Assembly: GCA_902806205.1 (NCBI GenBank)
Contig: CADCVR010000086.1
Location: 1 to 48,753, forward strand
Direction of reading: 5' to 3'
Source: an uncultured Solirubrobacteraceae bacterium
GTDB lineage: Bacteria; Actinomycetota; Thermoleophilia; Solirubrobacterales; Solirubrobacteraceae
DNA: 48,753 nucleotides
Each line of letters opens with the position of its first letter. Within the stretch, counting starts at the first letter, position 1. Shown here in pieces: positions 40,201-48,588 of the stretch. Below the pieces are notes generated by a model. The model saw nothing but the letters and a program-made list of their open reading frames with translations, did not search any database and was not told where the DNA came from. The translations under genes and the position numbers were made by a program.

Positions 40201-40788
40201 GTTCAGCGCCCGGTCGTGCCGAGCGAAGGGCCGCTGCAGCTCCACCCGCAGTCCTTCTGGCCCAAAGGCTGCGAGCAGCCGGCGGATCGACGGCTCGTCC
40301 CGGAGGCCCTGCTGTGCGCAACCCGTCAAGCAGACGAGGCCCTCCGCGTGCTCGGCGAGGTCGGTGAGGGTCACCGACGGCGCGATCGCCCGCCGTCGTG
40401 TCGCGTCGCGCGTGTGGGCGTGCGCCCGCGTGAGCAGCCGGCAGAGGTTGCGCCACCCCAGCTCGCTGCGGACGAGCAGCGTGACGTGGCGCAGCGCCGG
40501 CGGCTCCCAGACCGCGCCGCGGAGCACGGCGCGTCCGGGCACCACGTGGTCCGGTGAAGCGGGATCACGCTCGTCGCGCACGGAGACCTCCGCTCCGTGG
40601 ATTGCCCGCAGTCCGAGCGCCCCGGCGGCCTGCGCGAACTCCATCGATCCCGAGATCGTGTCGTGGTCGGTCAAGGCCATCGCGGTGTGCCCGCGCTCGA
40701 GTGCTGCGACTACGAGCTCTTCGGGCTGCGCGGTCCCGTCGAGGAAGGAGAAGGCCGAATGCGCGTGGAGCTCGACGTACGACGACAC
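37297..40788 (-). CDS. dnaE2: error-prone DNA polymerase III alpha subunit
   Basis: 1163 aa from the GTG at 40788. The N-terminal PHP domain begins [13 protein letters not shown]. The polymerase core has [24 protein letters not shown] and the catalytic aspartates in [16 protein letters not shown], then [17 protein letters not shown]. A C-terminal OB-fold ([27 protein letters not shown]) and the short tail are typical of DnaE2, which lacks the tau-binding end of DnaE1. DnaE2 works with ImuB in translesion synthesis during SOS. The start is set by similarity at [10 protein letters not shown]; a longer frame to 40941 adds residues without homology and would cross the LexA box. Confidence 0.9.
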   Translation of the reverse strand: [1163 protein letters not shown]

Positions 40789-40801
40789 GAACGCATGTTC
40801 C
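40788..40801. promoter_or_regulatory. LexA box of dnaE2, one mismatch
   Basis: CGAACGCATGTTCC (consensus CGAAC-N4-GTTCG). On the coding strand GGAACATGCGTTCG ends on the G of the GTG start codon. Confidence 0.7.
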
Positions 40802-40873
40802 CACAGCGAGCGGACGCTTTCCCTCGGCGCGGCCTCTACCAGTCTGCCCGCCCACTGAGCGCCGGGTGTGTCG

Positions 40874-41311
40874 CTACGAGTTCTCCTGCCAGCGGAAGAA
40901 TGCGAGCAGGTTGCCGTCAAGGTCGACCGTCGCGAACTCACGCGTGCCGAAGTCCGTCGCTTTCACCCCGGAGCGCGAGACCTTGTGGAGCACTCCTTCC
41001 CCCTGCAGCTCGAGGAACAGGGCATCGACGTCGGCGACCTCGATCCGGCAGCTCGCCGTGCCGGCCAGGAACGACTCGGCGCCCGAGCAGATCGGCCGGG
41101 TGACCAGGCCCTCCCGCGTCCGCCAGTCCTCATCCGTCGCGCCCCACAGATGCAACACCGCGTCGTCGCGCACCAAGACAGCGAAGTCGCCCTCGTGGTG
41201 CCGTGCGGCGAATCCGAAGTGCTCGTGATAATGCGCCACCGCCGCGCCCACGTCGCAGACGGGCAAGGCGGGAATCGTCTTGTGAAGGCCAGCTGAGGCG
41301 CGGGGAGACAT
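40874..41311 (-). CDS. VOC/glyoxalase-bleomycin-resistance-type protein
   Basis: 145 aa from MSPRASAG. It is a beta-alpha-beta-beta-beta vicinal-oxygen-chelate fold: LPVCDVGAAVAHYHEHFGFAARHHEGDFAVLVRDDAVLHLWGA, then ASCRIEVADVDALFLELQ and GTREFATVDLDGNLLAFFRW. The final E-F-A-T-V-D-x-D-G-N-L motif is the metal-region signature of bleomycin-resistance-like proteins. A dimer would bind a ligand or a metal; which one is unknown. It lies immediately upstream of dnaE2 on the same strand, 85 bp apart, but has no LexA box and is probably unrelated to SOS. Confidence 0.82.
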   Translation of the reverse strand: MSPRASAGLHKTIPALPVCDVGAAVAHYHEHFGFAARHHEGDFAVLVRDDAVLHLWGATDEDWRTREGLVTRPICSGAESFLAGTASCRIEVADVDALFLELQGEGVLHKVSRSGVKATDFGTREFATVDLDGNLLAFFRWQENS

Positions 41312-41355
41312 GTGCGCAGTGTCGCGAGGACAGCGCGCTCGAGGACAACAGACGA

Positions 41356-47418: not shown

Positions 47419-47524
47419 GCGCGCAGGGCCGATCGCGCCCAGCGCGGGCTTCGAGGACGAGGGTCGCCGGGCAGGTCGGGTCAGGAGACGGCGGCAACGC
47501 TCACCGCGCATGGACGCCGCCGGC

Positions 47525-47899
47525 TCAGCGCAACCGTGAACCACATCCCCCGCAGGCCCCGCCGGCCGCTCCCGCGTGTGGGTGCATCCTCGCCCCGCAG
47601 ACCGGGCAGTCCACGGGGCGGCGGGCGGACAGGCCCTCCCAGGCGCCGACGAGCAGTTCGTCGAGCGTCGCCTCACCACCCCGTGGTACCGCGATCTGCA
47701 CGACGGCGGTGCCGGCCGCTGCGGCCTCGGCGAGGCGCTCGGCGCCCAACCGCTCCGACAGCGACTCGCGCCCCGGCTCCTGGTCCCGAGCGAGCTCGCA
47801 TCCGCCGGCCGGAGCACCGACCTCGCCGAGCGAAAGCTGGCCCTCGGGCGGTGGCTCGAGGAACGACGGCCGCTCGACGTCCCGCAGAAGCGTCGCCAT
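47525..47899 (-). CDS. zinc-ribbon protein coupled to lexA
   Basis: 124 aa. The C-terminal zinc ribbon is C98-P-V-C101 and C116-G-G-C119. The N-terminal part is acidic and Gly/Ala/Glu-rich with EPPPEGQLSLGEVGAPAG and RESLSERLGAERLAEAAAAGTAVVQIAVPRGGEATLDELLVGAWEGLSA; no known domain. The ATG overlaps the lexA TGA by 1 nt (TGATG), so it is translated with lexA and should be SOS-inducible. Function unknown: a nucleic-acid or protein adaptor in the SOS response is plausible but unproven. Confidence 0.7.
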   Translation of the reverse strand: MATLLRDVERPSFLEPPPEGQLSLGEVGAPAGGCELARDQEPGRESLSERLGAERLAEAAAAGTAVVQIAVPRGGEATLDELLVGAWEGLSARRPVDCPVCGARMHPHAGAAGGACGGCGSRLR

Positions 47900-48531
47900 C
47901 AGGACACGCTCCGAAAGAGTCCCACGACGCGACCCATGATGCGCACGTCTCTGGAGCGAATGGGCTCCATCGTCTTGTTCTCGGGCTGCAGGCGCACGTG
48001 GTCGCTCTCGCGGAAGAAGCGCTTGACGGTCGCCTCCTCCCCCACCAGGGCGACGATGATCTCACCGTCCGACGCCGTCTCCTGCGGGCGCACGACAACG
48101 TAATCTCCCTCGAGGATCCCGGCGTCGATCATCGATTCGCCGCGAACCCGCAGCACGTACTCGCCCGTGCCCCCGCCACCGCCGGCGACCTCGGGCACCT
48201 GCATGTACTCCTCGATGTTCTCCTCCGCGAGCAGCGGCTGGCCCGCCGCGACGTTTCCCACCACGGGCAGCCCCGGGCCCGAGACGAGCGAGCGCACGTT
48301 CTCCACGACGCTCTCGGAGACGCGATCGAGCATCTCGATCGCTCGCGGCTTGGACGGATCACGGCGCAGGAGCCCGAGCTTCTCGAGGTTGGCCAGGTGC
48401 GCGTGCACCGTCGACGACGATGCGAGGCCCACTGCCTTGCCGATGTCGCGGACGGTCGGCGGGTAGCCGTACTTCGCGCTGTAGCGCTTGATGAAGTCGA
48501 AGATCTCCTGCTGGCGCTTGGTCAGGTCCAT
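47899..48531 (-). CDS. lexA: LexA repressor
   Basis: 210 aa. The winged-helix DNA-binding domain is residues ~1-66 (TKRQQEIFDFIKRY, PPTVRDIGKAVGLASSSTVHAHL). The self-cleavage site is A96-G97 in VGNVAAGQP. The catalytic dyad is S133 (RGESMIDAG) and K170 (EATVKRFF) in the peptidase S24 domain. LexA represses SOS genes until RecA filaments stimulate its cleavage. ATG at 48531 is used; GAGG lies 10 nt upstream. An ATG-less extension to 48591 crosses the LexA box, so it is rejected. The box and promoter lie just upstream, giving autorepression. Confidence 0.95.
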   Translation of the reverse strand: MDLTKRQQEIFDFIKRYSAKYGYPPTVRDIGKAVGLASSSTVHAHLANLEKLGLLRRDPSKPRAIEMLDRVSESVVENVRSLVSGPGLPVVGNVAAGQPLLAEENIEEYMQVPEVAGGGGGTGEYVLRVRGESMIDAGILEGDYVVVRPQETASDGEIIVALVGEEATVKRFFRESDHVRLQPENKTMEPIRSRDVRIMGRVVGLFRSVS

Positions 48532-48574
48532 CAGGGCAACGCCTCCGGGCGTCGGATGTTGCTGGGCAGGTAGA

Positions 48575-48588
48575 CGAACATGTGTTCG
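48575..48588. promoter_or_regulatory. LexA box of lexA, perfect consensus
   Basis: CGAACATGTGTTCG matches CGAAC-N4-GTTCG and begins 3 nt downstream of the lexA -10 hexamer, at the transcription start. Confidence 0.92.

Follow-up and report, generated by a model that had tools for sequence, protein, structure and literature searches.

How can one 14-bp sequence serve a repressor, RNA polymerase and the ribosome? The question is raised by the LexA operators of two translesion genes, imuB and dnaE2, in a 48,753-nt stretch of DNA from an uncultured Solirubrobacteraceae bacterium (GenBank assembly GCA_902806205.1, contig CADCVR010000086.1, positions 1 to 48,753; here called the window), and strand asymmetry in a comparison with relatives provides a means of separating the superimposed signals. 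The results point to LexA repression and PafBC-type activation, acting in all likelihood on leaderless or near-leaderless imuB and dnaE2 mRNAs made from promoters embedded in the operators.

The LexA box searched for was CGAAC-N4-GTTCG. Positions are given on the minus (gene) strand, and the boxes and genes concerned are as follows.

37297..40788 (-): dnaE2, error-prone DNA polymerase III alpha, GTG start
40801-40788 (-): LexA box of dnaE2, GGAACATGCGTTCG, one mismatch, ending on the G of the GTG start codon (40788)
44046..45218 (-): imuB, divergent Y-family (IMS-domain) protein
45235-45222 (-): LexA box of imuB, CGAACATACGTTCG, perfect, ending 3 nt short of the ATG at 45218
47899..48531 (-): lexA, with a leader and a Shine-Dalgarno sequence (ggagg)
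48588-48575 (-): LexA box of lexA, CGAACACATGTTCG, perfect, with the -10 upstream of it and the ATG (48531) 43 nt downstream

A sequence-only reading of the window had reported these three boxes, with that of imuB 3 bp from the ATG, that of dnaE2 ending on the GTG and the two separated by ∼4.4 kb; all were found at the positions claimed. A box of this form at a promoter is the mark of the actinobacterial LexA (SOS) regulon, and both mutasome proteins, a DnaE2-type error-prone polymerase and an IMS-domain ImuB, are encoded. The top NCBIfam model for DnaE2 was the error-prone polymerase, at 909 bits, just under the cut-off of 939. A family-model scan of ImuB matched no ImuB-specific model and revealed the IMS domain. 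The 3.38 Mb genome contains 304 LexA sites with at most one mismatch, or ∼0.2% per 25-nt start region. Chance placement of the two start-touching boxes was ruled out by this expectation and then by conservation in relatives.

Operator and start codon across relatives

DnaE2 and ImuB were searched for in 151 genomes of the order, and 80 loci were fetched for comparison. The counts given below cover related genomes; a genus-level count was made for strand bias alone, and the other tests are uncorrected for kinship. The nearest named relatives belong to the Solirubrobacterales, class Thermoleophilia, and include the metagenome-assembled genome (MAG) RYN_257 (88% DnaE2 identity), Paraconexibacter, Svornostia and Patulibacter. 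MAG records labelled “Bifidobacterium breve” (L228, L247 and L262) also encode a Solirubrobacterales-type DnaE2, ∼61-66% identical, and are probably mislabelled.

A box with at most one mismatch was present at 69 of the 73 imuB genes with a readable start; in 66 of these its distance to the start codon was -1 to +6 nt. For dnaE2 the box was present in 45 of 81 genes, 43 of them with the box at -1 to +4 nt. A second dnaE2 set, drawn from a named collection and sharing some genomes with the first, gave a box in 41 of 47 genes, every one at -1 to +5, and four boxes from other orders of Thermoleophilia lay at -1, 0, 1 and 3. The geometry common to imuB and dnaE2 that the sequence-only reading had pointed out is thus seen in relatives also, and the start-touching layout is conserved across the order. 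By contrast, the dnaE2 boxes of other actinobacterial classes mostly precede the first start codon by 11-18 nt and are directly followed by an apparent -10 (GATACT and similar), so that the operator register there is a different one. The dnaE2 gene of Streptomyces venezuelae is LexA-bound and damage-induced (PMC9380542), but its SOS box is listed at -68 from the start codon rather than touching it. This difference in operator/-10 register between Thermoleophilia and other actinobacteria makes the evolution of SOS promoters traceable.

That the true start codons lie farther upstream, with the box inside the coding region, is scarcely credible. In-frame upstream start codons do exist for dnaE2 of the window, where the reading frame is open to 40941, and for imuB, but 28 of 69 imuB and 16 of 45 dnaE2 relatives possess no upstream in-frame start whatever, and the conserved protein begins at the box. 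Upstream starts were rejected on these grounds.

The absence of a box from many dnaE2 genes follows the arrangement of the imuB operon, to which one further gene belongs.

43228..44049 (-): conserved imuB companion, found at every one of the 81 loci compared; no match in Pfam or NCBIfam; ATGA overlap of its start with the imuB stop

The ATGA overlap and the presence of the companion in 81 of 81 loci assign it to the imuB unit. The genes between imuB and dnaE2 had been taken as unrelated to either; this holds for those from 43246 to 40874, which look unrelated, but not for the companion. Where dnaE2 begins no more than 80 nt after the companion, a box was found in 0 of 25 cases, whereas at distances of at least 850 nt it was found in 41 of 41, one of these not touching the start. 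The imuB-like geometry is thus found at dnaE2 whenever it forms a separate unit, and by these counts dnaE2 carries an operator of its own only in loci where it lies outside the imuB operon, either through repeated gain or through repeated loss. The imuA-imuB-dnaE2 mutagenesis cassette is known to be split in some bacteria (review, PMC8072749). As in that cassette, ImuB and DnaE2 are here tied to LexA, but a different companion gene follows imuB, and dnaE2 carries its own operator only when apart from that companion. The companion is itself a candidate third component of the mutasome in Thermoleophilia. In one genus (L090, L091 and L092), a second LexA-like site, CGAACGAATGTACG, is fixed 33 bp upstream of the start-touching dnaE2 box.

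A predicted promoter within the operator

Inspection of the boxes and the sequence just upstream gave the following predicted promoter elements.

40795..40800 (-): predicted -10 GAACAT inside the dnaE2 operator; extended -10 TG at 40803-40802; predicted +1 at 40788
45229..45234 (-): predicted -10 GAACAT within the operator of imuB, with TG upstream (45237-45236); predicted +1 at ∼45222 (4-nt leader) or nearer the ATG
45245..45257 (-): weak imuB -35 TTTCGT (45257-45252) and degenerate -26-like CCGCCG (45250-45245), both far from consensus
48592..48620 (-): predicted lexA promoter, TTGATT (48620-48615), CGTCCG (48613-48608), N10, TAGCTT (48597-48592); predicted +1 at ∼48585

GAACAT is fixed on the gene strand, with AT at box positions 6-7 in 107 of 110 start-touching boxes as against 1 of 29 at lexA (Fisher p 7e-25). 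By genus majority, the strand bias of the box centre was 27 genera to 1. Since a symmetric site for the LexA dimer would favour neither orientation, a strand-specific signal of this kind is of the promoter type. The dinucleotide TG stands immediately 5′ of the box in 98 of 110 cases and its mirror image, CA, immediately 3′ in only 12; together, TG and GAACAT form a putative extended -10, TG-n-GAACAT. A -35 TTG lies at exactly N17 from GAACAT in 27 of 67 imuB genes. No Shine-Dalgarno sequence (anti-Shine-Dalgarno pairing of -4.5 kcal/mol or lower) was found at any of the 110 imuB and dnaE2 starts; one was present in 92% of lexA genes.

From the end of GAACAT to the start codon is 6 nt in dnaE2 of the window and in most relatives and up to ∼10 nt in imuB of the window, in keeping with the ∼6-9 nt used as the mark of a leaderless gene. 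The predicted +1 coincides with the last base of the box and the first base of the GTG in most dnaE2 genes, including that of the window. The conserved geometry, the strand-specific embedded -10, the extended -10 TG, the -35 at N17 and the missing Shine-Dalgarno sequence together give good support to the prediction that transcription under LexA begins at, or within ∼4-6 nt of, the start codons of imuB and dnaE2. The same sequence features lend good support to the proposal that these mRNAs are leaderless and that LexA lies over the -10 and the start.

Three points weigh against a promoter of this kind. GAACAT fits TAnnnT at only two of its three key positions. In the window, both the -35 and the -26 element of imuB are poor, so that its promoter would depend on the extended -10, and the -10-to-ATG distance points to a +1 4 nt before the ATG; “leaderless” may there mean a leader of 0-4 nt. 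Finally, imuB starts 41 nt after the upstream gene, and read-through transcripts are possible. The last point and the weak imuB elements would also suit leadered transcripts that start well upstream, from a promoter of their own or by read-through, with LexA acting as a roadblock near the start codon. We consider this highly improbable: it leaves unexplained the strand-specific GAACAT and TG and the absence of a Shine-Dalgarno sequence from all 110 genes, and the -35 or -26 holds a constant spacing to GAACAT and not to a -10 farther upstream.

The layout at lexA differs from that of imuB and dnaE2, with a leader and a -10 outside the box. Both in the window and in relatives the box is closely preceded by the predicted -10 (TAGCTT or TACCTT) and contains the predicted start, and a leader with a Shine-Dalgarno sequence follows. 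The lexA mRNA of Mycobacterium tuberculosis is leaderless and LexA-controlled (PMC2897130). It thus resembles the genes described here as an SOS gene with coinciding transcription and translation starts, a coincidence that is predicted in the present case. The roles are exchanged, however: in the window lexA has the leader and Shine-Dalgarno sequence, and it is the translesion genes that are predicted to be leaderless.

The CGTCCG element and PafBC

A second conserved element, overlooked by the sequence-only reading together with the operon companion of imuB, lies upstream of the predicted -10.

40811..40816 (-): CGTCCG of dnaE2, a putative -26-type element that precedes the -10 by 10 nt

With at most one mismatch allowed, CGTCCG was enriched solely at 10 nt before the -10, in 23 of 66 imuB and 20 of 43 dnaE2 genes against a background of ∼1 per position. 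It was also present at N10 in 20 of 22 recA and 23 of 25 lexA promoters, with few occurrences at other spacings. Within the imuB set the -35 TTG and CGTCCG avoid each other: 3 promoters had both, 24 and 20 had one alone and 20 had neither (p 0.0014, uncorrected for kinship). PafBC replaces -35 recognition through sigma adaptation (PMC11804915), and avoidance is what would be expected if it did so here.

A gene for a fused PafBC is present in the genome; its 700-aa product contains two stretches each of WYL and WCX. This protein gave a full-length match to 6sj9 (E 1e-24) and could also be aligned with both the PafB and the PafC chain of 7p5x, from M. smegmatis; scanned alone, it scored 31.9 with HTH_PafC against a cut-off of 32. 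The HTH_PafC family was matched in 140 of 151 genomes of the order, but it also matches unrelated controls, and with PafC-type matches in almost every genome there was too little variation for the presence of PafC to be set against that of CGTCCG.

The mycobacterial PafBC motif, tTGTCRgtg-8nt-TannnT, places TGTCRG at N10 from the -10 (PMC5656591). The same spacing was found here, although the first base of the -10 is often not T. At the imuB, dnaE2, recA and lexA promoters the core is CGTCCG rather than the mycobacterial TGTCRG, and the TGTC variant is rare. The element is therefore likened in function to the mycobacterial motif and is not classed as that motif. It shares with the RecA-NDp/PafBC promoter (PMC5656591) its place 10 nt upstream of an NAnnnT -10, its occurrence at recA and its non-palindromic, strand-specific character, but differs in having CGTCCG rather than TGTCRG and in the LexA operator that here overlies the -10. 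On this basis, CGTCCG is most likely the -26 element of the encoded fused PafBC, which would bind there.

A genome-wide scan for TCCGTCCG-N10-(T/N)AnnnT gave 12 places in the genome of the window and 2 in a reversed control. Several observations tell against the assignment to PafBC: only 4 of the 12 places are recognisable DNA-damage genes (recA, lexA, an sbcD-like gene and a radical SAM gene); the same pattern in three relatives gave 8 places against 1 in the control, with no clear repair gene and one place beside a LexA box; and CGTCCG differs from the mycobacterial TGTCRG. As this genome-wide test was mixed, the -26 claim rests on conserved spacing at orthologous promoters.

The spread of the pattern beyond repair genes would be expected if the operator-embedded leaderless promoter were real but served by LexA and plain sigma-A, with CGTCCG a general spacer element of the class or the site of another regulator. 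CGTCCG is also absent or poor in many imuB promoters, where TTG-N17 is used instead. This explanation is possible but rather unlikely, given that the exact N10 recurs at recA, lexA, imuB and dnaE2, including recA promoters that mostly have no perfect LexA box, that this spacing equals that of the mycobacterial motif, and that CGTCCG avoids the -35 in imuB as an activator replacing -35 recognition would require.

Dual control by LexA and PafBC, the explanation preferred here, can be described by the following model. At imuB and dnaE2, the putative extended -10 TG-n-GAACAT is written into the LexA operator and the start codon lies at its downstream edge, so that the -10, the +1 and the start codon would all lie beneath a bound LexA dimer. 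RecA on single-stranded DNA would trigger LexA cleavage, whereupon sigma-A RNA polymerase would start at, or within a few bases of, the ATG or GTG, and the mRNA, with no leader or almost none, would be translated without any Shine-Dalgarno sequence. In many relatives and at dnaE2 of the window, CGTCCG 10 nt upstream of the -10 would take the place of the -35, and PafBC activated by single-stranded DNA would add activation to LexA derepression. The sites, their spacing, strand bias and conservation, the absence of Shine-Dalgarno sequences and the pafBC gene are directly observed.

On balance, the data also favour a wider reading in which a ∼35-bp Thermoleophilia module nests the -26 CGTCCG, the extended -10, the LexA operator, the +1 and the start codon in a fixed register. 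Such a module would be placed on dnaE2 whenever that gene lies outside the imuB operon; imuB would use either sigma-A (-35) or PafBC (-26), and lexA and recA would share the -26. If so, the -26 element common to lexA and recA would let PafBC feed forward into the SOS repressor. The register names the exact bases to be tested.

A LexA-controlled leaderless mRNA and dual LexA/PafBC control of imuB and dnaE2 in mycobacteria are already known, the latter for imuA′-imuB/dnaE2 (Adefisayo et al. 2021, as cited in PMC10421592). The same genes and, by prediction, the same two regulators, a repressor and an activator, are involved here, and the double control of induced mutagenesis would thus extend to a deep branch of the phylum. 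The differences are that one 14-bp operator holds the predicted -10 and abuts the start codon, and that the putative -26 is CGTCCG and is carried by lexA as well; in M. tuberculosis, lexA reportedly depends on nothing but its SOS box (PMC8151990). New, as predicted from sequence comparison, are the register in which operator, -10 and start codon coincide, its class-wide conservation, a class-specific -26 element and the occurrence of that element at lexA. A first search in S. venezuelae reported that the mycobacterial PafBC motif is not conserved (PMC9380542). Among open-licence papers, none dealing with LexA in Thermoleophilia was found, and the present results predict a PafBC motif for a class for which that literature yielded no description.

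Further sites and neighbouring features

The sequence-only reading had proposed a scan of the genome for the distance from box to start codon. This revealed start-touching boxes at two further genes, so that the geometry is not confined to imuB and dnaE2. The LexA box of uvrA in the same genome lies 24 nt upstream.

L129:246-2370 (own genome contig C3): intein-containing Rv2578c-family radical SAM gene

The box of the radical SAM gene is exact, its GTG overlaps the box, and CGTCCG lies at N10 before GAACAT. The second exact box (L128, own genome C1:22976-22989) lies 1 nt before the ATG of a 105-aa open reading frame (ORF) with no family match, possibly a new SOS gene. An sbcD-like gene (L211, own genome C104) has its start ∼5-9 nt downstream of a promoter, CGTCCG-N10-CACCCT, that lacks a LexA box, and is possibly a PafBC-only, near-leaderless gene.

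Two other features adjoin lexA in the window. A 124-aa ORF at 47525-47899 (-), with a C-terminal cysteine-pair (zinc-ribbon-like) pattern and no Pfam or NCBIfam match, has a start that overlaps the lexA stop by one base. A tRNA-Leu (gag) gene at 48667-48750 (+) lies upstream of lexA on the opposite strand.

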